From Ignavibacteriaceae bacterium (GTDB lineage: Bacteria > Bacteroidota > Ignavibacteria > Ignavibacteriales > Ignavibacteriaceae): DNA of 39,912 nucleotides. Under the pieces are notes generated by a model. It was not told where the DNA came from, ran no database searches, and was given only the letters and a program-made list of their open reading frames with translations. Position 1 is the first letter of the stretch. Every line of letters starts with the position of its first letter. Below are positions 10,931 through 39,751 of this stretch, in pieces. The stretch covers positions 1 to 39,912 of the forward strand of contig JACZKK010000196.1 in assembly GCA_014860115.1 (NCBI GenBank), read 5' to 3'. A program made the translations under genes and the position numbers.

Positions 10931-10952
10931 TATTAAATATGTCAAGACCAAA

Positions 10953-12083: not shown

Positions 12084-12113
12084 AACACACCTTAATAAAA
12101 ATTATATAAAATC

Positions 12114-14500: not shown

Positions 14501-14548
14501 TGTGTTACGGTGATTTTGATTTGACAGAAATAATATTCGGAAAGGTCT

Positions 14549-14885: not shown

Positions 14886-14941
14886 TCCTCCCTACCCAAA
14901 GGGGAAGGATTTATGTATTTCAGATCTTTTGCTATTCAATT

Positions 14942-16801: not shown

Positions 16802-16963
16802 ATTTTATATTCCAGGATGTAGAATGTTGACTTTGAGTAGACCAATTATCGCATTCAATTAATTAAAAGAAATTATTGAGGTTAAATGATTTTCTGACTG
16901 AGTGAAACAATTTTTATCTCGACCTTATTTCAATTATTAAACTATAGGATTAGATCCAATTTA

Positions 16964-18109
16964 TTATCGCAGCAACACCATCTTCTTTACTGCAACGAAG
17001 GCATTGCTTTCAACTTTATATATGTAAATCCCCGAAGAAAGATGTTCTGAACGGAATTCAACCTCATAAATCCCAGGTTCTTTTTCTTCATCAACCAATG
17101 TAGCGACTTCATTTCCTAAAATGTCAAAAACTTTTAATTGTACGGGCACAATATATTGTGCCCCTACGGATGGGATTGTAAATTTTATTTTGGTGCTTGG
17201 ATTAAAAGGATTAGGATAATTTTGTGACAGAGTATATGCTTCAGGGAGTAAACTGACTTCTAAGTTTAAAATTTCTGATTCCGTTTTTGTTCCATCAAAA
17301 TCTAACTGAACAAGCTTATATGAATAACTCCCCGGCTCAAGATCTTTATCTGTAAAAGAATAACTATTTTCCTCTGTTGAAGTTCCCTGTCCTTGAACGA
17401 ATCCGATCATTTCGAATTGCAGATTTCGGATTTCTCCCGAAGGGATGGATGACCAGGATTTCGGATATACGTTAGCACGCAGGATTTCGAAGCCTGAATT
17501 ATTTGTTTCAGTTGCTGTTTTCCATTTAAGTATGACATTATTGTGATCCACAGAAGCCGTAAATGAAACAAGTTCAACAGGAAGGGGACCGAATAAATCA
17601 GTGAATTCTCCAGTCTGCCACAGAGTTGAGTTGTTTGCGTCGTAAATGCCCCAAAACGGGCTTGCTGTCTGCCAGGTTAAATGAGCAGCACCATTTGGAT
17701 CAACAATATCGAAATGAATTGTAACAACATCTGTCCATCCAGGGCTGGCAGTTACAATTGTTCCATTATTATTATTTGTAAAAGGCAAATCAATATTTAC
17801 CCATATTTGGTTTCTTATCGGTTTTGTAATTGTTGCCGGCGAGTAATTCCCATTATAAAAGTTGTGAAAAAAGTAATCCACGTTATTGACCGGATTATCG
17901 CCGATAGCAACCGCAGTCGTATCAAAACTAAAAGCAATTGTTGCTCCACCAAGATCATCAGCACCCGTATCTGTATTTATCTGAAGAAGTACAGAAAGTT
18001 CTGAACTTGTTATATTTATGACAGTGAATCGTCCATTAATTGTTGTTGAAAACAATAATGAATGAGAAAAGAAGAGTAAGACCCCAAAAAGCAGATTAAA
18101 TAGTTTCAT
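16964..18109 (-). CDS. cohesin-like, Fn3-like protein with T9SS type A tail
   Basis: The start is placed at the ATG of MKLFNLLFG (18107-18109), which has GGAGCG just upstream, rather than five codons earlier; this gives 381 residues. A signal peptide comes first. The cohesin-like module (about 22-165; LLQINTNTGADDLGGATIAF, FFHNFYNGNYSPATITKP, WTDVVTIHFDIVD) is followed by an Fn3-like module (LPVELVSFTASVD, LKWKTATETNNSGFEILRA) and the T9SS tail (SQNYPNPFNPSTKIKF ... VKKMVLLR). Two repeats are embedded in frame. About 17 codons (YPKSWSSIPSGEIRNLQ) lie inside the Fn3-like module, from a repeat at 17419-17465. The 20-base palindrome at 17144-17163 encodes VGAQYIVPV. It is a close paralogue of the genes on both sides. 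Probable surface anchor for dockerin-bearing proteins (inference). Confidence 0.87.
   Translation of the reverse strand: MKLFNLLFGVLLFFSHSLLFSTTINGRFTVINITSSELSVLLQINTDTGADDLGGATIAFSFDTTAVAIGDNPVNNVDYFFHNFYNGNYSPATITKPIRNQIWVNIDLPFTNNNNGTIVTASPGWTDVVTIHFDIVDPNGAAHLTWQTASPFWGIYDANNSTLWQTGEFTDLFGPLPVELVSFTASVDHNNVILKWKTATETNNSGFEILRANVYPKSWSSIPSGEIRNLQFEMIGFVQGQGTSTEENSYSFTDKDLEPGSYSYKLVQLDFDGTKTESEILNLEVSLLPEAYTLSQNYPNPFNPSTKIKFTIPSVGAQYIVPVQLKVFDILGNEVATLVDEEKEPGIYEVEFRSEHLSSGIYIYKVESNAFVAVKKMVLLR
17144..17163. repeat. 20-base perfect palindrome within coding sequence
   Basis: Second copy of GGGCACAATATATTGTGCCC. With one mismatch the symmetry extends outwards (GTAC... against ...CTAC). It is in frame in the T9SS tail, exactly as at 15122-15141. 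Confidence 0.9.
17419..17465. repeat. in-frame repeat insertion in Fn3-like module
   Basis: CAGATTTCGGATTTCTCCCG ... GACCAGGATTTCGG lies between the codons for EILRANV and FEMIGFVQG. Sister Fn3-like modules in this window (9184, 10953 genes) run through this point without it. Confidence 0.65.
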
Positions 18110-18795
18110 ATTTCGCTCCACCAAAAAAAGAGTTTGTCCATTTCGGCCATTTCTATTACTCTTTATTGAAGTAATCCAGCATCGTATCTATCAATACAGG
18201 ATTTTTAGCAGCCATTCCTTAGTATTCTTTTGCAAATAAGAAAATATTTTCTGCTGAACCGAAATTGTATCAGCAATTTATTTTCTATAATTAACCACCA
18301 ATTGTTGATTGGTTATAGTTTTCTCAACTTAGATACCACCGGATAATTCGATGAATTTGAAGAGAAAAAGAATGACTAAAAAATTTATGGGGTGACGGAC
18401 GACGAATCTGGCCGTCAGGAAATAGTCGGAAATTAGAATGAGTTTTTTTGAACTTCAGGAGTCATAAGAATAAAGTTTATCAGAATACTGGTAGTCACAG
18501 GATTTATCCTGCGGGATTTGATTGAGAACGCAACTCGCCCCGTCTCGCCTTCGGCTTCGCCCAGGCGGAAAAGTTACGAATTTGTTTAATTAACGCAAGC
18601 TAAAGCTTGCGACTACCCGGAAAAAATTATTTTTGAGACAGCCTCTAGATTATTTACTCTCATATAAGTGTTTATGATTTTTTTAGTTGTGGTACAGAAA
18701 TCTCAGGTCTGGAGACCTGAGCCACGCTGAACTATACTTCGTTTCGCCGAGACAAGTCGGACACCCTCTCCCTCAGAAAGAGGGATGGGGGTGAG
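18110..18795. repeat. gene-free region with a MITE-like copy and palindromes
   Basis: No gene is seen. 18529-18645 is a copy, in opposite orientation, of the element at 8337-8454. It shares CGCAAGCTAAAGCTTGCGAC and ends GAGACAGCCTC. It carries an inner insertion (GCCCCGTCTCGCCTTCGGC...CCCAGGCGG) and has lost its left terminus. 18705-18723 is the CTCAGGTCTGGAGACCTGAG-type palindrome. 18765-18800 holds the ACCCTCTCCCTCAGAAAGAGG repeat. Confidence 0.65.
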
Positions 18796-18880
18796 GGAAA
18801 ATTTTATTTTTGTTAAGGGATTAAAAGGATTGGGATAGTTTTGAACAAGATCAAAGTATTTCAGTGACGTATTTAGTTTC
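18796..18880 (-). pseudogene. fossil of the start of a T9SS sorting domain
   Basis: The minus strand reads LKYFDLVQNYPNPFNPLTKI and KFSL, then breaks into the CTCACCCCCATCCCTC repeat. Only the first 20-25 residues of the tail remain. The break falls at the same loop where repeats sit in the living genes at 14942, 16964 and 19035. Confidence 0.7.
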
Positions 18881-19034
18881 AACAGTAAGAGGAAAGTCTG
18901 TATGTATTACACTCAGTCATCCACAATTAAATTATTAAATGCAATCATTCAGTCTTGCTCTTTGGAACCGGTGTATAGTATTTTAAAAAAAACAACGCTG
19001 GCGAGATGAATTTCGCACTACAATATTTTATATT

Positions 19035-19892
19035 TTATCTTAACAAAATCATTTTCTTAGTGTCAGAAAATTCAGAAGCTTGTAAACGATAGATGTAAAT
19101 CCCCGATGCCAGATTCCGGACGTCGCCGGAATGACTTGCCCCACCAAATTCGACTTCATAAACACCGGGTGCTTTTTCTTCATTTACTAATGTTGCCACT
19201 TCGTTACCGAGGATGTCGTAGACCTGCAATTTTACCGGTACAGACCCTTCGACTCCGCTCAGGGTGACATATGGAATAGTGAATTTTATTTTGGTTGAAG
19301 GATTAAACGGATTAGGATAATTCTGTGAAAGTTCAAAATTCGTTGGTAAATCTGAAACAGGTTCTACTGATGTTGGGAAATCTTCAAACACACCATTTTC
19401 CCATATAGTTGAATTATCAGCATCATATATTCCCCAGAACAAGCTGTTTGTAAGCCAGGTCAAATCCTGAGTTACGTTTAAATCCACAGTATTAAAATGA
19501 ATGGTTACAACATCTGTCCATTCGGGATTTGCAGATACAGTAGTTCCATTATTACTATTTACATATGGTAGATCAATGTTGACCCATATTGTGTTTATCA
19601 ATGGCCTTGTTATAGTCGCCACCGAATAATTTTCACCGCTAAAATTGTGGAAGGTATAATCGACATCCTGAATAGGATTTTCATTTATGGAGATAGCTGA
19701 AGTGTTAAAGTCAAAAACGATGGTTGCACCACCAAGTGCAGCATTACCTGAATTAGTGTTAATCTGAAGAAGCACTGAAGTATTTGAAGGATCAGCACTT
19801 ACAATTACAAATCTGCCATTAATGGTAGCCGGTTCTGCGGAACATGCATACCATAAGAATAGTATTACTAAAAGTGAACTATAAAGCTTCAT
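19035..19892 (-). CDS. short cohesin-like protein with T9SS type A tail
   Basis: The start is placed at MKLYSSLLV (19890-19892), with GGAGAG close upstream; four earlier codons are also open. This gives 285 residues: a signal peptide (to about 20, CSAEPA), a cohesin-like module (22-165; LLQINTNSGNAALGGATIVF, TFHNFSGENYSVATITRP, WTDVVTIHFNTVD), a short linker and the T9SS tail (SQNYPNPFNPSTKIKF ... TKKMILLR). It is the minimal version of the family at 14942 and 16964. Two repeats are embedded in the tail: VTLSGVEGS, from CTTCGACTCCGCTCAGGGTG (19241-19270), and SHSGDVRN, from CCGGACGTCGCCGGAATGAC (19111-19137). Both keep the frame. It lies downstream of the dockerin-bearing beta-helix gene at 20286, so it is a candidate anchor for it (inference). 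Confidence 0.86.
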   Translation of the reverse strand: MKLYSSLLVILFLWYACSAEPATINGRFVIVSADPSNTSVLLQINTNSGNAALGGATIVFDFNTSAISINENPIQDVDYTFHNFSGENYSVATITRPLINTIWVNIDLPYVNSNNGTTVSANPEWTDVVTIHFNTVDLNVTQDLTWLTNSLFWGIYDADNSTIWENGVFEDFPTSVEPVSDLPTNFELSQNYPNPFNPSTKIKFTIPYVTLSGVEGSVPVKLQVYDILGNEVATLVNEEKAPGVYEVEFGGASHSGDVRNLASGIYIYRLQASEFSDTKKMILLR

Positions 19893-19904
19893 ATTTCTCT
19901 CCAT

Positions 19905-23610: not shown

Positions 23611-26600
23611 ATGAAACAGAAGTTACTTAAAGAGAATAAAATTGAAATTTCTCAAGATAAAGGTGCAATTGTAATAAGTCTTACAGACCTACCATATCTT
23701 GCCGATCATGCTTTCCAGGGAATGGTGGTTCTGCCGGGATCTGCTTATATAGAAATGTCGCTGATTATCTGCAACCAGCTTTACAATAAGCTGCCCTTCA
23801 CACTGAGTAAAATTAATTTTGAGAACTTAATTATACTATCAGAAAACGATACGAAAATTGATTTTGAATTGTTCGATGACTCAGACAAAGAATTGCGGAT
23901 AAAATTCAAAGAGAAAATTGAAAATGATAAATCAATTGAGAAAACCACTTCTGCGACAACTCTATACCTTCACAAGGATGAACTAGCAGTTACGTCACAG
24001 ATTTACGATTTCAGAATTTCAGAATTTCAGAAAGCGGCTGAGAAAAAAATTTTAGCAGAAGAGTTTTACAGCAAATTATCTCAAAACGGAAATCAATATG
24101 GTCCACAATTCCAGAACATCAAAGAAATATGGTTATCGGGAACTAAAGCTCTCGCAAGGTTAAAAAGCAAATCAAAAGTGAGTGAAATTCCGGGTGATCA
24201 TTTTTTAAACCCATCATTGCTGGATTCCTTTACGCAGCTTCTATCAGTGCTCAATGAAAGCAATGGCAGAACATTTATACTAAATTCTATTGAGAAAATT
24301 AAAGTTTTCAACTACGATTTTCCTGAAGAGGTGTGGTGCACAGCAAATCTCTCACCAAATATTAAAAAAGAAGAGAATGGATTTGAGGGTGATCTTAAAG
24401 TATTTGATCCTGAGGGCAAAATATACATTGAACTAAACGGAGTTAAGTTTAAATACCTGGAAACATTTCAAACACATGATAAAATTCCGGATAAAGTAAA
24501 AAATGCTTTGTGTATTGCTTCCACGTTCACAGCAGATCCACTTGAGGATTCATTGAAATACTGGGACGATTACTTTAACCTGTCATTTGATGTCCAATTT
24601 GCTCCGTACAACCAGGTGTTTCAGGAACTGTTAAACCCGCAAAGCTTACTTTCGGTAAATCAGAACGGCATTAATGTAATACTTCTTGGATTGGAAGACT
24701 GGACAAGAAACGATCATGGGCTAACATCAAAAGTAAGCGATGCCGAGAGAGAAAAGCTATTTAAGGATAAGTCCACCTATACTCTGCCCAACCACCTGGA
24801 AATTGTTCACCTGAATAAGTATGAGACCGAATATGTTTATAAAGAAATTTTTGCAGATAAATGTTATCTCAAGCATGGAATTGCTTTAAATGACGGCGAT
24901 ACTATTATTGATATCGGTGCAAACATAGGTTTGTTTACATTGTTCGTTAATCAATACTGTAAGGATCCCGTTGTTTATTCTTTTGAACCTTCTCCCGTGG
25001 TTTACGATCTATTGAAGACGAACTCCGAGTTATATGGTTCCAGAGTTAAAACTTTTAACTTAGGAGTTTCGGATCGCGAGAAAACTGCAACGTTTACTTT
25101 TTATGAAAGTTCATCTGTATTTTCAAGCTTTAATCCTGATGAAACCAAGGACAAAGAAGCAATTCAAGCCGTTGTAAGAAATATGCTGAAAGATACTGCA
25201 GGCTCAGATGATGGTTCAATTGAAGAATATGTTGAAGAACTTACAAGCGGCAGACTAGAAAGTAAATCATATGAGTGCCGATTGTTGTCTATATCTGATA
25301 TTATAAAAGAAAATAATATTAAAAAAATAGATCTCCTTAAGATAGATGCAGAGAAAAGTGAGTTGGGTATTATTCAGGGAATTAATGATGAAGATTGGGA
25401 TAAGATAGAGCAGATTGTGATTGAGATTCATGACAAATCGAGGAAGGTGCTTGAGGAAATTGAAAAAATTCTTAAGTCGAATGGTTTTAGTATTGCAGTT
25501 GAAGAAGAAAAGATGCTTAAGGAATCAGGTCTATTTAATGTTTTTGCAATTAAGAAAATTTCTGATGACAATCAACAGGTAGATAACAATCAAACAAAAT
25601 CACTGTCTGAGCGATTGAGTGAAAATATAGAAAATTTCGTCAACGCATTAAGTTCATTCAAACAAAGATCAACGATTCCTCTTGTCGTGGCGGTTACTCC
25701 AAGATCCACGGAAGCTATTATTAAACCAGCATTTCAAAGTTTGTTTGACAAATATGAAGAGGAATTATTCGATCAGATAAATAGCCTGCCAAATGTTTAT
25801 ACGATTACTTCTGAATCATTACTGGCTGCTTATCCAATCGTAAATTATTATGATCCACAGGGGGATGAATTAGGACATATACCTTATACCTTACCATTTT
25901 TTAGTTCGTTGGGCACGAGTCTGATCAGACTAATATTCTCACTTGAGCATTCTCCATATAAAGTAATCGCGCTTGATTGTGACAATACACTCTGGAAAGG
26001 TGTTTGCGGGGAAGATGGCCCGCGCGGCATTCAGATTTCAGAAAATTATAAGTTCCTGCAAAAGTTTATTATTGACCAGATAAACGCAGGTATGCTCGTT
26101 TGTCTATGCAGTAAAAATAATGAGGAAGATGTGCTAGAAGTATTCAGACAAAGAGATGATATGCTTCTAAAGCAGGAACATCTGGTTTCCTGGCGAACAA
26201 ACTGGGATTATAAATCAGTTAATCTAAGGTCAATTGCTGAAGAATTAAATCTTGGTCTGGACAGTTTCATGTTTATAGATGACAATCCTGTTGAATGTGC
26301 GGAAGTTAAAGCTAACTGCCCTGAAGTTTTTACCCTTCAGCTACCTCAGCGAGAAGAAGTCATACCAATTTTCTTAAAAAACATCTGGGCATTTGATCAT
26401 CTGAAGGTTACTGAGGAAGACAAAAAAAGAACAAAGATGTACCAGGAAAATATCCGGAGGGAAAAATATCTTTCAAGTGCATTAACACTAAAAGACTTTC
26501 TGGAGGGTTTGAACTTACAGATAAAAATCTCTCAACCTGATCCTGAACAAATGGAAAGAGTCTCCCAGCTTACTTATCGGACTAATCAATTTAATTTTAC

Positions 26601-27498
26601 AACGATCAGGCGTTCAGAATCAGAGATTAATAAACTAATCAACGAAGAGAAATACAAATGTCTGATAGCAAATGTCAGCGACCGGTTCGGAGATTACGGT
26701 CTGGTTGGATTACTATTATATAAAACCAATAAGGATATTATTGAAGTTGATACATTTTTATTAAGCTGCAGAGTATTGGGTCGTGGAGTTGAACACAAGA
26801 TTTTATCTGAATTGGGTTCTGTTGCAATAGAAAAAGGATTGAATATTGTAGAAATAACTTATCTGGAAAGCAATAAAAATAAACCGGCATTGGATTTTAT
26901 TGAAAGTTTTGGGAAAGAATTCAAATCTGAAATTTCTGATGGTTTCAAATACACTTTTCCGGCTGAGTATTTAAAGAATTTAGATTATAAACCAGCCTCT
27001 TTGGAAGTTAAAGAAGTGGTCGATAAATCAGGGAAGAAGAAGAAATCTACTAATCAGGTTTCTGGAAATTATAATGAAAAGATTCAGCAAATAGGAGCTG
27101 AGCTCAAGGATATAAATGAGGTTTTCAGAAGGATTGAGGCGTATAAAATTGCACAGTCGGATAAGGAAAAAATAAATTATGTAGCTCCTGAAACTGATTT
27201 TGAGATACAGATGGCTGAAATCTGGCAAAAAGTATTAGGCGTAAGTAAGATCGGGCTGGATGATAATTTTTTCGAAGCAGGTGGAACATCATTAAAAGCT
27301 GTACAGCTGATTGCTACAATTAAAAAGGAGTTAAAAAAGAATATTTCTGTCGTAACTCTTTTTGAATGCCCTACTGTTAAATTACTTTCAAAAAAAATTG
27401 GGAATGCAGACGATAAAGAGGATTCCGAAGGACAGTTTGAATCTCAGGTTGACCGAGGCGTACGCAGAAGAAATAAGATAATTTCCAGAAGAAGGTAA
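23611..27498 (+). CDS. fusion: PKS dehydratase - FkbM methyltransferase - FkbH (HAD) - ACP
   Basis: A 1295-residue protein. Residues 10-285 are a PKS dehydratase of the double hot-dog fold with both catalytic motifs (H33xxxG37xxxxP42; D205xxxQ209). From about 298 comes the N-terminal region of FkbH-type proteins (STFTADPLEDSLKYW, FAPYNQVFQELLNP, LLGLEDW). It is interrupted at about 385-650 by an FkbM-family methyltransferase (DIGANIGLF at 434-442, LLKIDAEKSE at 575-584), then resumes (SENIENFVNAL onward). The HAD catalytic motif is D789xD791NTLW, followed by the GNAT-like C-terminal part (to about 1120). The ACP lies at about 1195-1265 with attachment Ser1227 (GGTS), then a basic tail. FkbH proteins dephosphorylate 1,3-bisphosphoglycerate and load glyceryl on an ACP; the methyltransferase could O-methylate the product. 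A DH at the front, with no ketosynthase, is odd; it may act in trans on a neighbouring module. First gene of the operon, on an A-rich start. Confidence 0.9.
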   Translation: MKQKLLKENKIEISQDKGAIVISLTDLPYLADHAFQGMVVLPGSAYIEMSLIICNQLYNKLPFTLSKINFENLIILSENDTKIDFELFDDSDKELRIKFKEKIENDKSIEKTTSATTLYLHKDELAVTSQIYDFRISEFQKAAEKKILAEEFYSKLSQNGNQYGPQFQNIKEIWLSGTKALARLKSKSKVSEIPGDHFLNPSLLDSFTQLLSVLNESNGRTFILNSIEKIKVFNYDFPEEVWCTANLSPNIKKEENGFEGDLKVFDPEGKIYIELNGVKFKYLETFQTHDKIPDKVKNALCIASTFTADPLEDSLKYWDDYFNLSFDVQFAPYNQVFQELLNPQSLLSVNQNGINVILLGLEDWTRNDHGLTSKVSDAEREKLFKDKSTYTLPNHLEIVHLNKYETEYVYKEIFADKCYLKHGIALNDGDTIIDIGANIGLFTLFVNQYCKDPVVYSFEPSPVVYDLLKTNSELYGSRVKTFNLGVSDREKTATFTFYESSSVFSSFNPDETKDKEAIQAVVRNMLKDTAGSDDGSIEEYVEELTSGRLESKSYECRLLSISDIIKENNIKKIDLLKIDAEKSELGIIQGINDEDWDKIEQIVIEIHDKSRKVLEEIEKILKSNGFSIAVEEEKMLKESGLFNVFAIKKISDDNQQVDNNQTKSLSERLSENIENFVNALSSFKQRSTIPLVVAVTPRSTEAIIKPAFQSLFDKYEEELFDQINSLPNVYTITSESLLAAYPIVNYYDPQGDELGHIPYTLPFFSSLGTSLIRLIFSLEHSPYKVIALDCDNTLWKGVCGEDGPRGIQISENYKFLQKFIIDQINAGMLVCLCSKNNEEDVLEVFRQRDDMLLKQEHLVSWRTNWDYKSVNLRSIAEELNLGLDSFMFIDDNPVECAEVKANCPEVFTLQLPQREEVIPIFLKNIWAFDHLKVTEEDKKRTKMYQENIRREKYLSSALTLKDFLEGLNLQIKISQPDPEQMERVSQLTYRTNQFNFTTIRRSESEINKLINEEKYKCLIANVSDRFGDYGLVGLLLYKTNKDIIEVDTFLLSCRVLGRGVEHKILSELGSVAIEKGLNIVEITYLESNKNKPALDFIESFGKEFKSEISDGFKYTFPAEYLKNLDYKPASLEVKEVVDKSGKKKKSTNQVSGNYNEKIQQIGAELKDINEVFRRIEAYKIAQSDKEKINYVAPETDFEIQMAEIWQKVLGVSKIGLDDNFFEAGGTSLKAVQLIATIKKELKKNISVVTLFECPTVKLLSKKIGNADDKEDSEGQFESQVDRGVRRRNKIISRRR

Positions 27499-27763: not shown

Positions 27764-28624
27764 ATGACATTTAAAAACGTTGGGGTTATTGGTGCGGGTA
27801 ATATTGGAATTGGTGCGGCAACCGATTTGGTCTTGCATGGAATTAATTGTGTTTTAGTTGATATATCCCATGATCAACTGGAAAAAGCAAATGAAGAAAT
27901 ATTAAAAAATATAAGATTTGCGCCTTTAGTTTTAAAAAATTCTCCGAAGGTTTCCAAAGAAGAAGTTCTGGAAAGACTAAAGTTGAGCATAAATATTAAG
28001 GATTTATCTGCTTGCGATTTTGTAATTGAAAATGTAACGGAGGATTGGGAAATAAAAGAGAATGTATACAAGCAACTAGACGAAATTCTTAATCCTGAAG
28101 TCTGCATAGGCTGTAATACATCTTGCATTTCAATTACCAAAGTTGGGAGCGTTACAAACCGTCCTGATAAGATAGTAGGTATTCACTTAATGAATCCTGT
28201 TCACATGAAACCAACTGTAGAAGTAATAAAAGGTTTTCATACTTCAGATGATACTCTGGAAAAACTGCATGTACTGTTCAAACAATTGAATAAAAACTCT
28301 ATAGTGGTAAACGATATGCCGGGATTTGTTTCGAACAGAATTTCACATCTGTTTATGAATGAAGCTGTATTCGTTCTGCAGGATCAGGTAGCATCAGCAA
28401 AAGATATTGATGATATATTTAAAAAATGTTTCGGTCATATAATGGGACCGCTCGAAACAGCGGACTTAATCGGTCTCGATACAGTAATGCATTCGCTCGA
28501 TGTTCTGTATGAGAGCTATCATGATCCAAAATTCAGGTGTTGTCCCCTGCTCAGAAAAATGGTTTATGCAGGCCAGCTTGGCAGAAAGACCGGCAAAGGA
28601 TTTTACGAGTATCCCAAAGTTTAA
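27764..28624 (+). CDS. 3-hydroxyacyl-CoA dehydrogenase-like (FkbK/ZmaG type)
   Basis: A 286-residue NAD-dependent dehydrogenase with the Rossmann motif G10AG12NIG15. Active-site positions known from 3-hydroxyacyl-CoA dehydrogenases are visible: S120 (NTSCIS), H141 (GIHLMNPVHMKP), E153 (TVEVIKG) and N191 (PGFVSNR). In methoxymalonyl-, hydroxymalonyl- and aminomalonyl-ACP pathways, a member of this family oxidises the alcohol of the ACP-bound glyceryl or seryl group to the aldehyde. Together with the acyl-CoA dehydrogenase-like gene and the free ACP that follow, it forms the classic fkbK-J-I trio. It acts in the cytoplasm on ACP-bound rather than CoA-bound substrate (family knowledge). No strong ribosome binding site; the gap to the next gene is 41 bases. 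Confidence 0.88.
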   Translation: MTFKNVGVIGAGNIGIGAATDLVLHGINCVLVDISHDQLEKANEEILKNIRFAPLVLKNSPKVSKEEVLERLKLSINIKDLSACDFVIENVTEDWEIKENVYKQLDEILNPEVCIGCNTSCISITKVGSVTNRPDKIVGIHLMNPVHMKPTVEVIKGFHTSDDTLEKLHVLFKQLNKNSIVVNDMPGFVSNRISHLFMNEAVFVLQDQVASAKDIDDIFKKCFGHIMGPLETADLIGLDTVMHSLDVLYESYHDPKFRCCPLLRKMVYAGQLGRKTGKGFYEYPKV

Positions 28625-28665: not shown

Positions 28666-28926
28666 ATGACCATAGAAACCAAACAAGCAACTAAGGAGAT
28701 TATAAGAAATTTTATTCTTGACTCAATTAATATTCCAAATTTGAGTGATGATGATAATTTATTCGAATCCGGAATAGTCAATTCACTTTTTGCAGTTCAA
28801 TTGATGACATTTATAGAAAAATCTTTTAGCATCGAAGTTACTATGGATGATCTGTCTATGGATAATTTTGAGTCCGTAAATGCTACTTCATCTTTTGTCG
28901 AACGAAAACAAAATCATAATCAATAA
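28666..28926 (+). CDS. free acyl carrier protein (FkbJ/ZmaH type)
   Basis: An 86-residue carrier protein. The phosphopantetheine Ser is residue 40 in FESGIVNSLFAVQLM, where Asn replaces the usual Asp before the Ser. The helix II and III pattern (FIEKSFSIEVTMDDLSMDNF) is intact. AGGAAG lies about 4 bases before the ATG, a better ribosome binding site than its neighbours have. It sits between the two dehydrogenases and is expected to carry the glyceryl or seryl unit while it is oxidised to the malonyl-type extender. Which of the two loaders uses it (the FkbH domain or the serine A-domain protein) cannot be told from the sequence. Confidence 0.88.
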   Translation: MTIETKQATKEIIRNFILDSINIPNLSDDDNLFESGIVNSLFAVQLMTFIEKSFSIEVTMDDLSMDNFESVNATSSFVERKQNHNQ

Positions 28927-28941
28927 ACAGAAATTTAAATA

Positions 28942-30099
28942 ATGATCAGCTTGCTTACAGAAAATCAGAAAGCGCACTACGAAGAATTTAAAGAATTTAT
29001 AAAAGCAAACGTTGAACCATACGCGTCGAAGTGGGATTACAACCAGGAAATGCCTGATGATTTCATTTCATTGCTGGCAAAATCAGGTTACCTTGGAAGT
29101 AACATACCGACTGAGTTCGGTGGAAAAGGCTGGGACTTCGTCACCTTTGGATTATTGAATGAAGCAGTGGGAAGAGGAATTTCTTCGCTCACAGATCTTT
29201 TAACTATCCAGGCAATGGTATCAATGACTTTATTGAAATGGGGAAGCAAAGAACAAAAAGATAGGTGGCTAAACCCTTTAGCTAAAGGAGAAATAATTGG
29301 AGCCTTTGCCCTTACAGAACCGAATGTTGGCAGTGCCATTCAAAATCTTGAAACTAGTTTTAAAAAGAAGGGCAATAATTATATTCTTAATGGTAGAAAA
29401 AGATGGACATCTTATGGTGAAAAAGCTGATCTATTTTTAGTTTTTGGCAAGGATGAAGACAAGTCGATGGCTTGTTTGTTGCCAAAAGACTCACCTGGGC
29501 TGGAGATCAGTCCGATAAAAAATATGATGGGATTCAGAGCTGCACATATGGCTCAACTGAATTTTCATGACATAGAAATCCCTGAATCGAATATTGTAGG
29601 AAAACCTGGCTTTGCGTTATCACACGTAGCATCCATTGGTTTGCACTATGGAAGAATCAGCACTTCCTGTTCAGCATCAGGATTATTGAGAGCTTGTTTT
29701 GAGGAGAGTGTTATTTACTCTTCTCAACGAAAAATAGGAAAGAAATTAGTTGGTGATGAAGGTATGATTCGAACTTTAATCGCCAGGATGGGAACTGATC
29801 TTCATGCCGCAAGTCTGCTTTGCTATTCTGCCTGTAAAGCTGAGGATGAACACACATCCAATGTTTATGAGAAAGTTCAAATGGCGAAGTATTTTACCTC
29901 AAGGGCTGTCGTTCGCGCAGCATCAGACGCAGTTCAGATTCAGGGAGCAAATGGCTGTCACGAATCCTCCCCTGCTGCCAGATATTACAGAGATTCTAAA
30001 ATTATGGAAATAATTGAAGGTACAACGCAAATCCACGAGCGAATGCTTGGGAAAACATTTGTAGAAAAAGCGGCAAAATTAATTAAAGCAAAGATTTAG
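28942..30099 (+). CDS. acyl-CoA dehydrogenase-like flavoenzyme (FkbI/ZmaI type)
   Basis: A 385-residue protein of full acyl-CoA dehydrogenase length, with the FAD-binding AFALTEPNVGSA segment (about 126-137) and the catalytic-base motif near the end: E359 in MEIIEGTTQIHERMLG. NIPTEFGGKGWD and the GRISTSCSASGLLRACFE helix also fit the family. FkbI/ZmaI-like members oxidise the ACP-bound aldehyde (tartronate or aminomalonate semialdehyde) to the acid. The 15-base gap after the ACP gene implies they are made together. Only one such gene is present, whereas zwittermicin-type clusters that make both hydroxy- and aminomalonyl units carry two; the single copy may serve one or both routes. Confidence 0.88.
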   Translation: MISLLTENQKAHYEEFKEFIKANVEPYASKWDYNQEMPDDFISLLAKSGYLGSNIPTEFGGKGWDFVTFGLLNEAVGRGISSLTDLLTIQAMVSMTLLKWGSKEQKDRWLNPLAKGEIIGAFALTEPNVGSAIQNLETSFKKKGNNYILNGRKRWTSYGEKADLFLVFGKDEDKSMACLLPKDSPGLEISPIKNMMGFRAAHMAQLNFHDIEIPESNIVGKPGFALSHVASIGLHYGRISTSCSASGLLRACFEESVIYSSQRKIGKKLVGDEGMIRTLIARMGTDLHAASLLCYSACKAEDEHTSNVYEKVQMAKYFTSRAVVRAASDAVQIQGANGCHESSPAARYYRDSKIMEIIEGTTQIHERMLGKTFVEKAAKLIKAKI

Positions 30100-30132: not shown

Positions 30133-31761
30133 GTGACTGAAAAGCATGAAATAAATATCGATATTGTGTCAGATCAACTGATAATGTTCAATAATACTGA
30201 GCGGAAGTTTCGGGATAATGTAACAATTCATCAGCTTTTTGAAGAGCAGGTTTCAATAAACGGTTCTGAGATTGCAGTACTATGTGATCATGAAAAAACT
30301 TTTAACGGAAAGAAGTCTCTTACTTATGAAGAGTTAAATAGCCTTTCAAACAGCTTAGCCAAACTTTTAAGAGAGAATGGCGTTACGGCAGATAAAGTGG
30401 TCGGAATATGCGTTGATCGTTCCTTTGCTATGATAATTGGTATTCTGGGAATTCTTAAAGCCGGGGGTGCATATCTTCCGCTAGCTCCCGATTTTCCTAA
30501 AGAAAGAATTTCTTATATGCTTTCTGATAGCAGTGCTGAAATTTTGTTGGTTCAGGATAAAACAAATTTTGAGTATGATTTCGATGGTAAGATTATCAAC
30601 ATAGAGAATATAGATATTTACTCAGAATCATCTGAGAATCTAACTTCAGTTAGTGGTCCCCGAGATTTGGCTTATGTTATTTATACTTCGGGCTCAACGG
30701 GGAAACCTAAAGGTGTAATGGTTGAACATAGATCCTTGGTTAACAGACTTTCCTGGATGCAGAACGCTTACACAATTGATCGAAGTGATGTTATACTACA
30801 AAAGACACCATTTTACTTTGATGTATCTGTATGGGAAATTTTTTGGTGGGCAATTACGGGTGCAAAGATGTGCTTCCTGATGCCGGGTGGAGAAAAAATT
30901 CCACTGGCAATTGTCGAGGCAATAAAAAAGTATAATGTATCGATTTTACATTTTGTTCCATCAATGCTGAATGTATTTCTTGAATATCTTGAGGGCAAAG
31001 ATATATCCCAAATTAAAAAATTATCATCTGTCAGAAAAGTTTTCTCGAGTGGTGAAGCTCTTTCACTAAGCCACGTGAAAAAGTATAACAATTTCTTTGG
31101 TCAGCATACATCAGCGCAATTAACGAACCTCTACGGACCAACGGAAGCAACTGTGGATGTAAGTTACTATAATTGTCCGTTAAATAATGGATTTGATAAA
31201 GTTCCAATTGGAAAGCCAATTGACAATATAAAATTTTACGTAATTAAAGAAGGTCAGCTTCAATCTATTGGGGAAACCGGAGAATTATGTATATCCGGTG
31301 TTGGTTTAGCCAGAGGATATATTAATAATCCTGATTTGACTAACGAAAAGTTTGTTGACAATCCATTTCTTCCAGGTGAAAAAATGTATAAGACTGGCGA
31401 TATTGCTCGCTGGCTTCCTGACGGTAATATTGAATATCTGGGTAGAGAAGATCATCAGGTTAAAATACGGGGATTAAGAATAGAGTTAGGGGAAATAGAA
31501 ACAACTATAAGAGAGTTTATCGGAGTGCAGGATTGTATCGTTACTGTAAAAAAATTCTCTGAAAATATAATTTTAATTATCGCTTATATCGTCTGGAGAG
31601 CCGAGTTAAATATTGATGGATTAAAAAATAATCTTAAAAAATATCTTCCGGAATATATGATCCCAAATCATTTTATAGAGCTTGATCAAATTCCATTACT
31701 TCCAAATGGTAAAGCAGATCGTAAATCACTTCCAGAACCCATATTGAATGTTAAACAATAA
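30133..31761 (+). CDS. stand-alone adenylation protein, predicted serine-activating (ZmaJ-like)
   Basis: A 542-residue protein with a GTG start; the first ATG, 17 codons in, would cut the domain's conserved lead-in. All adenylation core motifs are present: YVIYTSGSTGKPKGV (A3), FDVSVWEIF (A4), NLYGPTEATVDVS (A5), YKTGDIARW (A7), GREDHQVKIRGLRIELGEIE (A8) and PNGKADRK with the A10 Lys. No carrier or condensation domain is attached; it ends 15 residues after A10. The specificity residues read by eye (D230 V231 W234 H273 F304 S306 L333 V341 D342) match the serine code DVWHFSLVD. A free serine-loading enzyme next to a free ACP and the two dehydrogenases is the layout of aminomalonyl-ACP synthesis (zwittermicin, guadinomine). 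Alternatively it loads serine onto an ACP of the assembly line. Confidence 0.86.
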   Translation: MTEKHEINIDIVSDQLIMFNNTERKFRDNVTIHQLFEEQVSINGSEIAVLCDHEKTFNGKKSLTYEELNSLSNSLAKLLRENGVTADKVVGICVDRSFAMIIGILGILKAGGAYLPLAPDFPKERISYMLSDSSAEILLVQDKTNFEYDFDGKIINIENIDIYSESSENLTSVSGPRDLAYVIYTSGSTGKPKGVMVEHRSLVNRLSWMQNAYTIDRSDVILQKTPFYFDVSVWEIFWWAITGAKMCFLMPGGEKIPLAIVEAIKKYNVSILHFVPSMLNVFLEYLEGKDISQIKKLSSVRKVFSSGEALSLSHVKKYNNFFGQHTSAQLTNLYGPTEATVDVSYYNCPLNNGFDKVPIGKPIDNIKFYVIKEGQLQSIGETGELCISGVGLARGYINNPDLTNEKFVDNPFLPGEKMYKTGDIARWLPDGNIEYLGREDHQVKIRGLRIELGEIETTIREFIGVQDCIVTVKKFSENIILIIAYIVWRAELNIDGLKNNLKKYLPEYMIPNHFIELDQIPLLPNGKADRKSLPEPILNVKQ

Positions 31762-31802: not shown

Positions 31803-34800
31803 ATGAATAACAGTTTTGACATAGCGATAATTGGAATGTCCTGCCGGTTCCCCGGAGCCGATGATCTTGATTCTTTCTGGAATAATTTAGCAAATGGCGT
31901 TGAATCCATAAGTCACTTTTCCGATGAAGAGTTAAGGAAATCGGGAATTCCCGAATCATTAATTAACAATCCAAATTATGTTAAGGCTGCACCAATAATT
32001 AATGAACCGGGAATGTTTGATGCAAGTTTCTTTGGATATACTCCAATGGAAGCCAAGACAATGGATCCGCAACACCGGATACTATTAGAATGTGCGCACC
32101 AAGCCCTAGAACATTCCGGATACGATGCTGAAAAGTATAAAGGTAGAATTGGCGTGTTCACAGGATCTGCTATGAACACTTATTTTATGAATAATATTCT
32201 ACGTTCAAAGTTTGTCGATGAATATATTCCAACTTTAATTGGCAACGATAAAGATTTTCTCAGCACACGAATCTCATACAAATTAAATCTTAAAGGACCA
32301 AGTATTAATGTTCAAACCGCTTGTTCAACTTCCTTGGTGGCTGTACATCTAGCCTGCCAGAGTCTCATTAGTGAAGAATCAGATATGGTACTTGCAGGTG
32401 CAGTATCAGTAAAGGCTCCTCACACGGCAGGATACATTTGTGATGGTGGTGGAATAGTGTCGAAAGATGCTCATGTAAGAGCATTTGATGCAAAGGCAAA
32501 TGGAACTGTTTTCGGAAGCGGCTGCGGTGTTGTAGTATTGAAACGGCTTTCAGATGCGATAAAAGATAATGACACAATTCACGGTGTAATAAAAGGTAGT
32601 GCAATCAATAACGATGGTTCTGAAAAAGCTGGTTATACAGCGCCAAGTGTTAACAGTCAGGCCGATGCTGTAATTGAAGCTCTGTCTCTGGTGGACATTA
32701 ATGCAAATACTATCTCATACATTGAAGCACATGGTTCCGGAACACCATTGGGTGATCCAATAGAATTGGCAGCATTAACAAAAGCTTTCAGAAATTTCAC
32801 TAACGAAAATAAGTTTTGTGCAGTAGGTTCTGTTAAAACAAATGTTGGTCATCTTGATGCAGCAGCAGGAATGGCTGGATTAATTAAAACATTACTTTCC
32901 CTTAAACATAAAAAAATTCCACCCAGCATAAACTTCTCCGAACCCAATCCTGAAATTGATTTTGCAAGCAGCCCATTTTTTGTTAATTATCAATTATCAG
33001 ACTGGAAAAGTATTGGCCCAAGAAGAGCAGGCATTATGTCTACTGGAATGGGAGGGACCAATGCGTATTTAATTTTAGAGGAAGCACCTGAAGAAAAGAA
33101 AGTATCCACATCAAGTCATCCCAACATTTTATTGTTTTCTGCAAAAAGCGAAACAGCACTAAGCGAACATTCAAAACAATTATCAGAGTTCTTAGAAAAG
33201 AATAATGAAGTTAACATTAATGATGTGGCTTATACACTGCAGCAAGGAAGGAAAAAATTTAATCATCGGCGATTTTTAGTTAGTAAAGACAGACCCGATA
33301 CTATAGAAATATTGGAACAGGAGAAATCAAAAAGAGTTTTTTCGGGAAAACTTAAGAATACGTCTAAACGTCCTGTGATCTTTTTATTCCCAGGCATTGG
33401 TGATCATTATGTCGGTATGGGATATGATCTTTATCAAAATGCAAAAATATTTACTGAGGAAGTGGATAGATGTGCTGATATACTTAAAGAATATCTCGAT
33501 TTAGATATCAGAGACATACTGTATCCTAAGGATTATAATAGAAGTAAACCTGGAAATGGTGGTGGTATTGATCTGAAGAAAATGCTGGCGAGCCGGGTTA
33601 ATAAAGCTGCCGATGTGAATACTCAAAAGCTTAATCAAACATTATATGCTCAGCCAGCACTATTCACGATTGAATATGCGCTTGCAAAATTATGGTTACA
33701 TCTCGACATTACTCCGGATGCAATTGTCGGACATAGCATGGGTGAATATGTTGCTGCTTGCCTGGCCGGTGTATTTTCTTTGGAGGATACCTTAAAGCTT
33801 ATTGCTATTCGTGCAAAGTTGGTAAATGATTTACCGCAAGGTGGAATGCTTGCTGTTACACTTCCGGAAGATGAACTGACCCCTTTACTGAGTGATGGGT
33901 TATCAATATCTCTGATTAATTCACCTAATCTTTGTGTTGTTGCAGGTCCAGAAGAGAAAGTGAATCAGTTTGAGGGAGTCTTAAAAAATAAGAAAATACT
34001 TTATCGACAAGTTCAGAATGCTCATGCATTCCATTCTAAAATGCTCGATCCGATATATGATGACTATACCAAAGAGATCAAAAAGATTAAGCTAAACTCA
34101 CCCAAGATACCATTTACTTCAAACCTAACAGGCAACTGGATTACTGATCGTGAGGCCACGGATCCGATTTACTGGGCTAAGCATGCTAATAATACAGCTA
34201 GATTTAGCAATTCACTTGAAAAAGCATGGCAAATGATCAATGCTATATTTTTAGAGGTGGGGCCGGGGAATACTCTTAGTGTGCTTGCGATGCAGCATCC
34301 TGAGAGTAAAAAGTATGAAAACCCTGTCACAATCTCCACTTTAAGACCAGAATATGATAATCAATTCGACTTGGACTATTTTTTTACTAGTATTGGCAAG
34401 TTTTGGTTATCGGGGACTGAGATAGATTGGGAAAAACTATATCAGGATGAAAAACCCAAGCGAATACCTTTACCAACATATTCTTTCCAAAGAGAAAATT
34501 ATTGGATTGAAGACTTAGTTGATACTAATTCAAGATTCACATCTGAAGTATCAATTCACAAAACTTCAAATATCTCCGAGTGGTTTTATGTTCCGTCATG
34601 GAAACGATTAATTCAACAACCTATCTTGAGTAATGATCTAAAGTTAAAGATTGGACTAAGACTAAATTGGTTAGTTTTTTTAGATGATATGGGAATAGCT
34701 TCAAGTTTAGTTGAGAGACTTCGCAATTGTGGACAGGTGGTAGTTACTGTTAAGAAAGAAGAAATATTTAACTTTGATAATAATTCATTTACATTAACTC

Positions 34801-36514: not shown

Positions 36515-39500
36515 TTGAGTGATGTAAGGAAACTTACCAGCGAAAGACAAGCACTTCTTGAAAAGAGATTGAAAGGAATCTCTTTAGGAAAATCTGTTTC
36601 CTCCTCTATTCCGAAGCGTAAAAAGAATGATATAATCCCATTGTCAGACTATCAGGAACCTTTGTGGATAATTGACAATTTGGAGCCTGGTAATCCTGCT
36701 TATAATGTGCCTGTAGCTTATCGTTTGAAAGGTGAGTTAAATCTACAAAAGATTAAAGAGTCTCTTAATAAGGTTATAGAAAGACATGAAACATTAAGAA
36801 CTACGATAGAAAGACATGGGAATGAAGTCGTACAGGTTATTCATGAGAATCTTAAAGTGATTCCTGAATATATAGATTTAGAAAATATCCCTGTAAATGA
36901 TTCTTGGAGTAAACTAAAAATACTTCTATCAGAAAAAGCTGGCAAAAGATTTAATTTATCGAAGCTTCCATTACTGAGTCTTACTTTGTTTAAATTGAGT
37001 ATAAATGAATATGTATTATTTATTAATATGCACCACATTATTTCTAGTGGAATATCGGCTGGGATATTAATTAGAGAGCTATTTGCTTTCTACGAAGGAA
37101 ATAATGAGATCCTTTCAGAATTAGATATTCAGTACGCAGATTATACGATATGGGAAAAAAGTAGAGTAAATAGAGAAACGCAAAAATCTCAATTAGATTA
37201 TTGGAAAAGTACACTTGGTGATCAACTCCCAGTTTTAGATTTCCCAATCGATAAGTCAAGACCATCCCTTCCGACTAATGTCGGAGCGAATCATTTTTTT
37301 TCACTTCCTAAATCATTATGTGCCTCTTTAAATGAAATTGGTTCCAAATCAGGTTGCACATTATTTATGACCTTATTATCCGCTTATTACGTTTTATTAA
37401 GAAGGTATTCCAATCAAAATGACATCATTATTGGTGTGCCTGTGGTAAACAGAAACCTGAAAGAGCTAGAAAATTTAATTGGTTACTTTATTAATATAAC
37501 GGCATTTAGGATAAAGACAATAACTAATATTTCATTTCTAGAACTACTGAGTCAAGTTAGAGATATAACTATCGATGCATTTGCTAATCAGGATATCGCC
37601 TTTAATAAGATAGTTGAAAATTTAAATTTTTCTAGAGATTTAGGCCATAATCCTATTTTCCAGACTTTATTCGAATTTACCGCTAATATGAACTTACAAT
37701 TTCCCAATTTTCAAATCAGTAGGGTCCCGGTTGATAATAAATATTCGCAACTTGATATTTCTCTACATATAAATGAAGAAAAGGATGAATATTTATGCAG
37801 GTTTGAATATAACACAAACTTGTTCGATGAAACTACTTTGATAAGGCTCTCAAATAATTTCAGATATTTACTACAGCAGATCATTGAACATCCCAATGAG
37901 TCTATTTCTAATATTTCTCTCATTGCACCTAGAGAATCTCATTTAGTATTTGATGAATTTGTTTTTTCCCCAGCTGAATTTATTTGCGAATCTACGCTTC
38001 ATCAAATGTTTGAAAAAACAGCGAACATTTTTAGCGATAAAATAGCAATTGAATATGACAACACAACATTGACATATAAAGAACTAAATATTAAATCAAA
38101 CCAGGTTGCAAATTTTTTACAAAAAAAAGGTGTACATACTGAAATTCTAGTCGCTGTAAATTTAAATCGTTCTTTAAATCTAATAATATGGTTATTAGGA
38201 ATTTTGAAAGCGGGTGGTGCTTACATTCCACTAGATACTGGATATCCTAAAGAACGACTTAATTTTATGCTGCAGGATAGCGCGGTTTCCTTTCTGGTTA
38301 CGGAAAAAGAATTTGTGGAAACTTTTTCAGAGTTTAGTGGATTAAAAGTATGTATTGAGGAGGTTCAAAATTTAATTAATTCTGAAGATGATAATTTTAC
38401 AATTGGTGATTCCAGATTGGACAATGCAGCCTATGTCATTTATACATCAGGATCCACAGGTACACCTAAGGGTGTAATTAATACTCACAAAGGAATTACA
38501 AATTATCTAACTTCATTACAAAATTATTATAAAGTTAATTCCTCAGATGTTGGGCTACAGAAAACTCCGATAAGCTTTGATGTTTCAGTAAGAGAAATCT
38601 TTCTGCCCCTTATATCCGGCGCTAAGCTAATACTTGCAAAACCAGATGGACATAAAGATAATGCTTATCTTATTGAACTTATAAGAACAAAAGAAATTAC
38701 TTTACTAAGTTTTGTACCATCCCAATTAAGTGTTTTTCTAATGGAAAAAGATGTTAGTAAATGTAAAACCATCCGTCAGGTTATTTGTAGCGGGGAAGTG
38801 TTGAGTACTTCAATCCAAAAAATATTTTTTAATAATTTAAGTTCCGAACTTGATAATCTTTACGGTCCTACTGAAGCTGCAGTCGATGTAACAAGATGGA
38901 GATGTATTAATGATACTGAAAGTGGTTTTATTCCTATTGGTAAACCAATTACGAATAATAGGATCTATATTCTTGATGGTAATGATCAACAGGTTCCTAT
39001 TGGTGTCTATGGGGAAATTTGTATAGGTGGAATTCAGGTGGCCCGAGGGTATTTAAACAGACAGGATTTGACATCTGAGAAATTTGTTCATGATCCTCTA
39101 AGCATTGATTCTAGTAATAAAATTTATAAGACTGGCGATATCGGCAGATTTCTTATTGATGGGAATATAGAATATAAGGGTAGAAGAGATAATCAGATTA
39201 AAATTCGAGGATTTCGAGTAGAATTGGGCGAAATTGAATCAATTTTGATTAAAAATAAAAACCTTAAAGACGTGGTTGTTTTATTACGGGAAAGAAATAA
39301 TGAAGATAAAATAATCGTTGCTTATTATATTCCAAATGATCAAAACATTTCCATAGGTGATTTGAAAAGGTATGCAAAGGAAAGATTACCTGAATATATG
39401 ATCCCAGCATATTTCGTAAAAATGGATGTGTTCCCTCTCACTCCAAGTGGAAAGATCGACAGAAAATCTTTTCCAGAGGTTGACTCAATATTAATTGAAA

Positions 39501-39751
39501 ATGATCTTACTGAAAATATTCCTCAAAATAATCTTGAAAACGAAATAATGAAGATCTGGGAAAATCATCTTGGAGTTAAAAATATTGGGGTAAAAAACAA
39601 TTTTTTTGAAATTGGTGGTAATTCTCTTTTAGCAATTAAATTGATTTATGAGTTGAATGATAAATTTAATATTGATTTACCATTGAGTATTATTTTTGAC
39701 GCCCCCTCAATAAGCAAACTTTCGATTGAAATTTCAAAATTTAAGAACTAA
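36515..39751 (+). CDS. NRPS module C-A-PCP
   Basis: A 1078-residue protein starting with TTG at 36515, with GGAG five bases upstream. Condensation domain at 38-470: the core motif is H173 H174 I I S S178 G instead of HHxxxDG, so the usual Asp is Ser; other C motifs look normal (LIGYFINITAFR, HNPIFQTLFEF). Adenylation domain at 495-985 with YVIYTSGSTGTPKG, SFDVSVREIF, NLYGPTEAAVDVT, YKTGDIGRF and PSGKIDRK. The specificity residues by eye (D689 V690 R693 S732 I757 S759 L782 V790 D791) are unusual because R693 replaces the common Trp; no amino acid can be predicted. PCP at about 1005-1075 with Ser1037 (IGGNSL). There is no thioesterase or reductase, so another protein must release the product. 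It is the last gene in the window. Confidence 0.92.
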   Translation: MSDVRKLTSERQALLEKRLKGISLGKSVSSSIPKRKKNDIIPLSDYQEPLWIIDNLEPGNPAYNVPVAYRLKGELNLQKIKESLNKVIERHETLRTTIERHGNEVVQVIHENLKVIPEYIDLENIPVNDSWSKLKILLSEKAGKRFNLSKLPLLSLTLFKLSINEYVLFINMHHIISSGISAGILIRELFAFYEGNNEILSELDIQYADYTIWEKSRVNRETQKSQLDYWKSTLGDQLPVLDFPIDKSRPSLPTNVGANHFFSLPKSLCASLNEIGSKSGCTLFMTLLSAYYVLLRRYSNQNDIIIGVPVVNRNLKELENLIGYFINITAFRIKTITNISFLELLSQVRDITIDAFANQDIAFNKIVENLNFSRDLGHNPIFQTLFEFTANMNLQFPNFQISRVPVDNKYSQLDISLHINEEKDEYLCRFEYNTNLFDETTLIRLSNNFRYLLQQIIEHPNESISNISLIAPRESHLVFDEFVFSPAEFICESTLHQMFEKTANIFSDKIAIEYDNTTLTYKELNIKSNQVANFLQKKGVHTEILVAVNLNRSLNLIIWLLGILKAGGAYIPLDTGYPKERLNFMLQDSAVSFLVTEKEFVETFSEFSGLKVCIEEVQNLINSEDDNFTIGDSRLDNAAYVIYTSGSTGTPKGVINTHKGITNYLTSLQNYYKVNSSDVGLQKTPISFDVSVREIFLPLISGAKLILAKPDGHKDNAYLIELIRTKEITLLSFVPSQLSVFLMEKDVSKCKTIRQVICSGEVLSTSIQKIFFNNLSSELDNLYGPTEAAVDVTRWRCINDTESGFIPIGKPITNNRIYILDGNDQQVPIGVYGEICIGGIQVARGYLNRQDLTSEKFVHDPLSIDSSNKIYKTGDIGRFLIDGNIEYKGRRDNQIKIRGFRVELGEIESILIKNKNLKDVVVLLRERNNEDKIIVAYYIPNDQNISIGDLKRYAKERLPEYMIPAYFVKMDVFPLTPSGKIDRKSFPEVDSILIENDLTENIPQNNLENEIMKIWENHLGVKNIGVKNNFFEIGGNSLLAIKLIYELNDKFNIDLPLSIIFDAPSISKLSIEISKFKN

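Follow-up and report, generated by a model that had tools for sequence, protein, structure and literature searches.

Relation to known FkbH-containing loading modules

The first module of OocJ, which opens the polyketide synthase (PKS) of oocydin A biosynthesis, has been published as a dehydratase-methyltransferase-FkbH-acyl carrier protein (DH-MT-FkbH-ACP) assembly, whose ACP is essential, as its mutation abolished activity; in the accessible part of that report, its DH and MT are thought to be non-functional, and the system is of the trans-acyltransferase (trans-AT) kind (PMC4552970). Oocydin B, according to the available text of another report, keeps a cryptic starter moiety (PMC7930024). 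A loading module consisting of FkbH, an O-methyltransferase, a peptidyl carrier protein (PCP), and a sulfotransferase is part of the suomilide pathway proposed from the bsl genes of Nostoc KVJ20, and NMR revealed 2-O-methylglyceric acid 3-O-sulfate, its proposed product, in suomilides (PMC13122637). Likewise, such a module and the same sulfated unit are given for suomilide and varlaxin (PMC10143770), and a similar module with a 2-O-methylglycerate product is given for dysinosin (PMC6520454); the accessible parts of these three papers do not describe a nesting of the methyltransferase. The window analyzed here, one whole contig of 39,912 bases from an Ignavibacteriaceae bacterium (JACZKK010000196.1, in a genome assembly of 3.9 Mb and 222 contigs), contains a gene that encodes a DH, an FkbM methyltransferase, FkbH, and an ACP in a single chain of 1295 residues. 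This protein is real, conserved, and unusual, and is best interpreted as a one-chain variant of the known FkbH loading modules.

Like OocJ, with which it can be compared by the published description, the window protein carries DH, MT, FkbH, and ACP on one chain, and its domain set is thus not new in kind. Unlike in OocJ, the motifs of the window protein are intact, and the first ketosynthase (KS) does not follow on the same chain but is encoded in a separate open reading frame (ORF, 31803-36473). The presence of FkbH, an O-methyltransferase, and a carrier in one loading module is shared with the modules of suomilide, banyaside, varlaxin, and dysinosin (BslA, AerB, DysB), as far as these are described in the accessible texts; those modules, unlike the window protein, have no DH, are followed by a sulfotransferase, and continue as a nonribosomal peptide synthetase (NRPS) line. 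With the glyceryl-transferase-phosphatases FkbH and ZmaN (TIGR01686), the protein shares the HAD-IIIC part, the GNAT-like region, and an N-terminal domain of the BF1531 type, whereas the methyltransferase inserted in this domain and the fused DH and ACP set it apart from them.

The gene and its parts are the following, with the nested domain given in brackets:

23611..27498, + strand: whole gene, DH-FkbH[FkbM]-ACP, 1295 residues, ATG start (ORF list, Pfam/NCBIfam)
23653..24468, + strand: PKS-type dehydratase domain, residues about 15-286, with H33, P42, Y163, D205, and Q209 (Pfam, fold, residue conservation)
24499..24714, + strand: FkbH N-terminal domain, first half, residues about 297-368 (sequence alignments, model superposition)
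24715..25608, + strand: insert, residues about 369-666, containing the FkbM methyltransferase, Pfam 434-627 (Pfam, fold, tree, alignment)
25609..25959, + strand: FkbH N-terminal domain, second half, residues about 667-783 (alignments, superposition)
25960..26925, + strand: FkbH catalytic part, HAD-IIIC (DCDNTLW at 789) and GNAT-like region (TIGR01686, TIGR01681, GNAT folds)
27214..27393, + strand: carrier protein domain, Ser1227 (PF00550)

The methyltransferase belongs to the FkbM family, as PF05050 matches residues 434-627 with an E-value of 7e-18 and 65.8 bits against a cutoff of 22.7, and residues 784-1105 belong to FkbH, with 299.2 bits against a cutoff of 146.65 for TIGR01686. The HAD motif, D-x-D-x-T, is found within DCDNTLW at residue 789. 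The first-pass annotation, made from the sequence alone, had described a chain with its own ACP and no attached ketosynthase, and both points hold: the PP-binding domain occupies residues 1202-1261 with Ser1227, and the Pfam/NCBIfam domain scan of ORF 23611-27498 reports no KS. A sulfotransferase domain is likewise absent from the Pfam scan of the 1295-residue protein.

Insertion of FkbM in the N-terminal domain of FkbH

The N-terminal domain of FkbH in the window protein is whole, yet interrupted by a complete FkbM methyltransferase, since both the alignments with un-nested FkbH proteins and the superposition on a solved structure run across the insert. The motif LGLEDW is located at residues 359-364, and SENIENF begins at residue 670. 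In the un-nested FkbH of Aquisphaera (L024), the pieces matching window residues 287-388 and 658 onward adjoin each other, as do the pieces matching residues 300-372 and 667 onward in that of Niallia (L025), whereas in the window protein the same pieces are 270-295 residues apart. When four un-nested FkbH proteins are aligned, the break starts a few residues past LEDW and ends at about residue 667, and nearly all of window residues 369-666 are without a counterpart, save for a short linker.

The AlphaFold model of residues 290-1110, built from 14 alignment rows, has a mean pLDDT of 85 and a pTM of 0.59. The FkbH-like protein BF1531 (3slr) superposes on model residues 3..644, i.e. residues 292-933 of the chain, with a Z score of 26.0 and an rmsd of 2.8 Å for 342 of its 376 residues, and the superposition runs across the insert. 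As the part following the insert spans at most about 282 model residues, about 60 aligned residues of BF1531 must lie earlier, and in the model they most simply sit in the segment preceding the insert. BF1531 is likewise retrieved with a sequence profile (E 1e-47), through the post-insert part, whereas by sequence alone the first half of FkbH reaches just 1.7 bits. The domain between the two halves matches the FkbM structure 2py6 (Z 15.1, 170 residues), and the GNAT-like region of FkbH matches GNAT folds. The relative placement of domains in a model of residues 1-1110 was not used, as its pTM was 0.40.

The nesting proposed in the first-pass annotation is thus borne out. It had set structure prediction as a check on whether segment 298-365 is a simple linker; this possibility is ruled out by the model, the superposition on BF1531, and the un-nested alignments. 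An origin of the fusion in faulty assembly is excluded as well, by a full-length copy from the same genus that is 60% identical and by the recurrence of the layout in other phyla.

Structure and conservation of the dehydratase

The N-terminal domain had been called a complete PKS dehydratase with both catalytic residues, and this assignment stands. PKS_DH_N is matched by residues 22-98 (E 3e-12) and PS-DH by residues 141-284 (1e-26), and the modeled fold superposes on the solved dehydratases of CurF, CurJ, MlnB, and PksJ with Z scores of about 30 and an rmsd of 2.3-2.7 Å. This fold, together with the His/Asp dyad H33/D205, places the domain among PKS dehydratases. Residues H33, P42, Y163, D205, and Q209 are identical in all eight DH-bearing rows, namely the window plus seven loci that are labeled as five phyla. 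The blocked active site that the first-pass annotation had named as a refutation was not seen, as judged from the fold and the motifs, both of which are intact. Both Pfam models are reported in 8/8 relatives scanned (L034, L032, and L035-L040); in L040, the match to PKS_DH_N is below the cutoff, and the DH of that locus was missed by BLAST.

Relatives and their distribution

Genome contigs were searched with the alignment of FkbH-N and FkbM, and the best 80 of 365 relatives were taken, which is a sample and not a census. The domain order, which the first-pass annotation had suggested seeking elsewhere, recurs in seven loci among these 80, labeled as five phyla: L034 (Nitrospirota), L035 (Chloroflexota), L036-L038 (Verrucomicrobiota), L039 (Cyanobacteriota), and L040 (Thermodesulfobacteriota). 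Both L036 and L039 are truncated at contig ends, with the remainder of L036 apparently located on contig L114 from that genome. L040, from a metagenome-assembled genome of Desulfobacteraceae, is interrupted by an in-frame TAA (L040:5086-5088), either a real stop or an assembly error, within the GNAT-like region; past it, the same frame runs into the remaining GNAT-ACP-KS-DH, so that this codon separates the KS of the locus from the domains before it. The full-length copy from the same genus, in genome G001, is the one found in five other genomes of that genus and the sole case among the 58 relatives searched. The same-genus copy and the recurrence in other phyla confirm that the layout is beyond chance.

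Nested proteins without a DH form another group. The protein of Symploca (L054) is FkbH[FkbM]-ACP-sulfotransferase, and that of Nostoc KVJ20 (L118) is collinear with the window protein at 51% identity and carries a sulfotransferase domain; the order of FkbM within FkbH followed by ACP is common to the window protein and these two. By strain name and domains, L118 fits the suomilide-type loading protein bslA. A divergent DH-less form is found on plasmids of Streptomyces (two), Embleya, and Kitasatospora, with three of the four aligning collinearly from residue 311 on and L028 from residue 391 only.

Within the phylum of the window itself, FkbH matches at E <= 1e-60 occur in 14 of 395 genomes. 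Apart from the window, the matches listed begin at query residue 371 or further on and hence do not cover the insert; the same-genus copy was outside this draw of 395 genomes. Two proteins were not counted as nested, namely that of Frankia (L093), which stops inside the methyltransferase, and that of Chitinophaga (L058), with the methyltransferase before FkbH. In the Frankia locus (L093:4905-8723), an un-nested FkbH gene stands beside the DH-FkbH-N-FkbM gene that ends inside the methyltransferase. FkbM with FkbH-N-like flanks and without the HAD part is present in Burkholderia (L029:7827-10064) and Paraburkholderia (L042:7770-9431), and in the former, the frame continues into an isochorismatase domain.

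Phylogeny of the methyltransferase and its host domains

The methyltransferase tree comprises 88 rows, i.e. 91 FkbM hits (span >140 residues, >80 bits) less the duplicates L032, L119, and L122 and a second hit of L063, plus the window; it is a quick tree with SH-aLRT support and without bootstrap. The 17 rows labeled as lying in FkbH are split into a clade of 13 that includes the window (SH-aLRT 99) and an actinobacterial clade of four (99). Both FkbH halves were matched around the methyltransferase in L005, L034, L035, L037-L040, L054, and L118, as well as in the duplicate L032; only the first half was matched in L036, which meets a contig end, and the window served as the query. The labels of L026, L027, L028, L031, L029, and L042 come from longer alignments, with the first half of FkbH unmatched in L028 and the HAD part lacking in L029 and L042. 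As the Streptomyces-type clade of four stands apart, two separate insertions and a single insertion followed by strong divergence are not distinguishable. Within the clade of 13, the DH-less proteins of the suomilide type (L054 and L118) are sisters to the DH-bearing L039, hence DH was gained or lost within this group.

Another 39 of the 88 rows were labeled as lying inside adenylation (A) domains, four of them matched on the left side only, and L063 received the label "other" despite the location of its row inside an A domain. Matches to A subdomains are found on both sides of FkbM in 36 of the 91 hits. In many phyla, a related FkbM is located inside the C-terminal subdomain of NRPS adenylation domains (for example, L030:4851-12569, L043, and L059). 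FkbM-type methyltransferases therefore nest in at least two unrelated host domains. The principle is that of the interrupted NRPS adenylation domains, with FkbH as the host instead, and N-terminal domains of FkbH, like adenylation domains, accommodate an entire methyltransferase.

Genes downstream of the proposed loading module

The genes that follow on the contig are listed below:

27764..28624, + strand: 3-hydroxyacyl-CoA dehydrogenase family (HBDH), FkbK/ZmaG-like (Pfam/NCBIfam)
28666..28926, + strand: stand-alone acyl carrier protein, 86 residues (ORF and sequence scan)
28942..30099, + strand: acyl-CoA dehydrogenase family (ACAD), FkbI/ZmaI-like (Pfam/NCBIfam)
30133..31761, + strand: stand-alone adenylation domain, code DVWHFSLVD(K), serine (Pfam, code, accessible part of PMC3795760)
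31803..36473, + strand: PKS module KS-AT-ketoreductase (KR)-ACP, without DH (Pfam)
36515..39751, + strand: NRPS module condensation (C)-A-PCP, nearly reaching the contig end (domain scan)

The code DVWHFSLVD plus K is that of enterobactin serine activation, as given in the available text of PMC3795760. The A domains of L037, L038, and L114 share the nine code letters of the window, nine positions having been compared. In zwittermicin biosynthesis, HBDH, ACP, ACAD, and a seryl-AMP synthetase (zmaGHIJ) make aminomalonyl-ACP, according to the accessible part of PMC6395733, and the same set is present downstream of the loading module; this is a likeness at the level of the set. Unlike in zwittermicin, the cassette adjoins the loading module and the AT motifs differ, with GHSMG and HAFH in the adjacent AT in place of the GYSLG and GPFH of ZmaF. 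The best NCBIfam match of the A domain is SolG, and the accessible parts of the solanimycin papers show no FkbH.

HBDH and ACAD adjoin the gene in four of the seven loci with visible downstream regions, each time with a serine-type A domain (the window, L037, L038, and, via its inferred link to L114, L036). On the verrucomicrobial contig L114, a second, free-standing FkbM-like methyltransferase (26% match) lies between the end of FkbH and HBDH (L114:2061-2987). In both L034 and L035, the DH-type gene is directly followed by one that bears a KS. Over its full 19,246 bases, the L034 contig holds the DH-type gene, a KS-AT-KR PKS, and, after these, NRPS genes of the C-A-PCP type; HBDH, ACAD, and a stand-alone A domain are all absent from it. 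The absence of HBDH and ACAD means little in G001 and L039, where the region downstream of the gene is cut off by the contig end, and in L035, where just 1.2 kb of it is visible. An ACAD of >40% identity was found in six of the nine DH-type genomes (G000, G059, and G061-G064). That of G059 belongs to an HBDH-ACP-ACAD-FkbH set located apart, on a different contig, and next to that of G064, no HBDH was detected. In five further loci (L138-L140, L115, and L117), it is FkbH that comes after the genes for HBDH, ACP, and ACAD, with one more ORF between in L117.

At the RXR position, beside HAFH, the AT of the window reads LYR. By hand count, only the first residue is hydrophobic in the window, L114, L037, and L038 (L, I, I, and M, respectively), and the same position is D, A, and E in L034 and two ATs of L117.

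Proposed function and alternative explanations

The mechanism that we propose is a free-standing loading module making 2-O-methylglyceryl-ACP and, by means of its DH, 2-methoxyacryloyl-ACP. The FkbH part would dephosphorylate a glyceryl unit derived from 1,3-bisphosphoglycerate and load it on the C-terminal ACP, the nested FkbM would methylate its C2 hydroxyl, and the N-terminal DH would then remove the C3 hydroxyl, which is β to the thioester, to yield 2-methoxyacryloyl-ACP as the starter for the KS of the next protein. In another order, dehydration would come first and give an enolpyruvyl unit trapped by methylation, with the same end unit. The methyl group is placed on C2 because the product of the suomilide-type modules is 2-O-methylglyceric acid. 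A DH could yield the acrylate since the C3 hydroxyl of the glyceryl unit is β to the thioester and the hydrogen at C2 is acidic, and as a KS is absent from the protein, the nearest substrate would be the unit carried by the ACP of the same chain. We give the mechanism an even chance: sequence and structure prediction establish the domains, their nesting, the intact motifs, the recurrence, and the neighboring genes, whereas the DH step and the role as a starter module are inferred. The first-pass annotation had placed glyceryl loading, O-methylation, and dehydration on this one chain; loading and C2 O-methylation by the window protein are probable by analogy with the suomilide-type relatives, in which they have a precedent, whereas dehydration of the methylglyceryl unit would be a step with no direct precedent in the cited papers.

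Methylation at C2 is favored by the DH-less suomilide-type relatives that share the methyltransferase clade of 13 with the window, and the starter role by the KS genes directly downstream in L034 and L035, the frame of L040 leading into ACP-KS-DH, and the precedent of OocJ. The HBDH-ACP-ACAD-A(Ser) genes would most likely make aminomalonyl-ACP for the KS-AT-KR module. We can speculate, with considerable reserve, on a wider scheme, in which a widespread one-chain enzyme turns 1,3-bisphosphoglycerate into a 2-methoxyacryloyl-ACP starter and hands it to a module, perhaps extending with aminomalonyl, to give a 2-amino-3-hydroxy-4-methoxypent-4-enoyl unit, with oocydin-type modules as relatives.

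Several observations weigh against these proposals. The contig ends at 39912 and cuts off the remaining assembly line. The adjacent AT carries GHSMGE and HAFH, motifs of the malonyl-CoA kind in the table of PMC4207774, and thus favors neither aminomalonyl nor methoxymalonyl; an additional AT may be encoded past the end of the contig. Moreover, the set for methoxymalonyl-ACP (FkbG-K: FkbH, ACP, O-methyltransferase, HBDH, and ACAD) is also complete here, all five functions lying within 6.5 kb, so that an extender synthase must be considered, in which FkbH loads the glyceryl unit, HBDH and ACAD oxidize C3 to a carboxyl, FkbM methylates the C2 hydroxyl, and an AT passes methoxymalonyl to a PKS module, with DH being a relic or active elsewhere. 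A related FkbM is indeed fused as AT-ACP-FkbM beside HBDH-ACP-ACAD-FkbH in Streptomyces, although it falls in another clade of the tree. We nevertheless consider this explanation less likely, as the serine-type A domain, for which it has no need, accompanies HBDH, ACP, and ACAD in the four loci named above, the three genes are missing from the whole L034 contig, three of the nine DH-type genomes (G001, G060, and G065, all incomplete assemblies) have no ACAD above 34% identity, the AT is malonyl-like, and DH stays intact. HBDH and ACAD by themselves were rejected as proof of methoxymalonyl, since they come with an ACP of their own and a serine-type A domain.

The adjacent PKS module has no DH in any of the three complete loci scanned (the window, L034, and L037), and N-terminal and split-module DH domains (5kku, 5e1v) are among the structures matching the DH of the window; both agree with a split-module DH acting in trans on the β-hydroxyacyl chain of KS-AT-KR-ACP, while FkbH[FkbM]-ACP supplies a 2-O-methylglyceryl starter. 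This is rather improbable, as DH is fused to the ACP of the C3 unit even where the following PKS is different and has its own DH (L040), and such a reaction after extension with aminomalonyl would yield a dehydroamino acid. The glycine of the HxxxG motif, G37, is kept in four of the eight DH rows and replaced in four, and the DH and MT of OocJ, with a predicted malonyl starter, are said in the accessible part of PMC4552970 to lack conserved motifs. A catalytically idle DH, as claimed for OocJ, would leave 2-O-methylglyceryl as the final unit, as in suomilides, and the DH-less nested relatives are indeed tied to a known product. We regard such idleness as quite improbable, since the His, Pro, Tyr, Asp, and Gln listed above are retained in every row.

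The window protein is an intact and catalytically plausible version of a domain set known in the accessible literature from one module thought to be dead, that of OocJ. Should the formation of 2-methoxyacryloyl-ACP prove true, it would point to an enol-ether starter unit, and the oocydin-type modules, written off as inactive, would be relatives of an enzyme that makes it; the short cluster leaves this chemistry open to testing. To our knowledge, a 2-methoxyacryloyl starter unit was not previously known. Neither such a starter nor an FkbM nested in FkbH was found in the literature searched, which was mainly openly accessible and covered in part.

Additional features of the surroundings

On the Streptomyces plasmid L139, the AT-ACP-FkbM fusion (L139:4105-6789) is located directly before HBDH-ACP-ACAD-FkbH, an arrangement resembling the PelG type in the available text of PMC6395733. 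Upstream of the window gene, the opposite strand carries an ORF that matches no Pfam family and, beyond it, several proteins bearing type IX sorting signals, hence the cluster seems to begin with the gene for the 1295-residue protein. On the − strand of the window, positions 5627-19904 encode a series of proteins, some of them BNR/Sortilin-like, and Por_Secre_tail type IX sorting signals are present in five.

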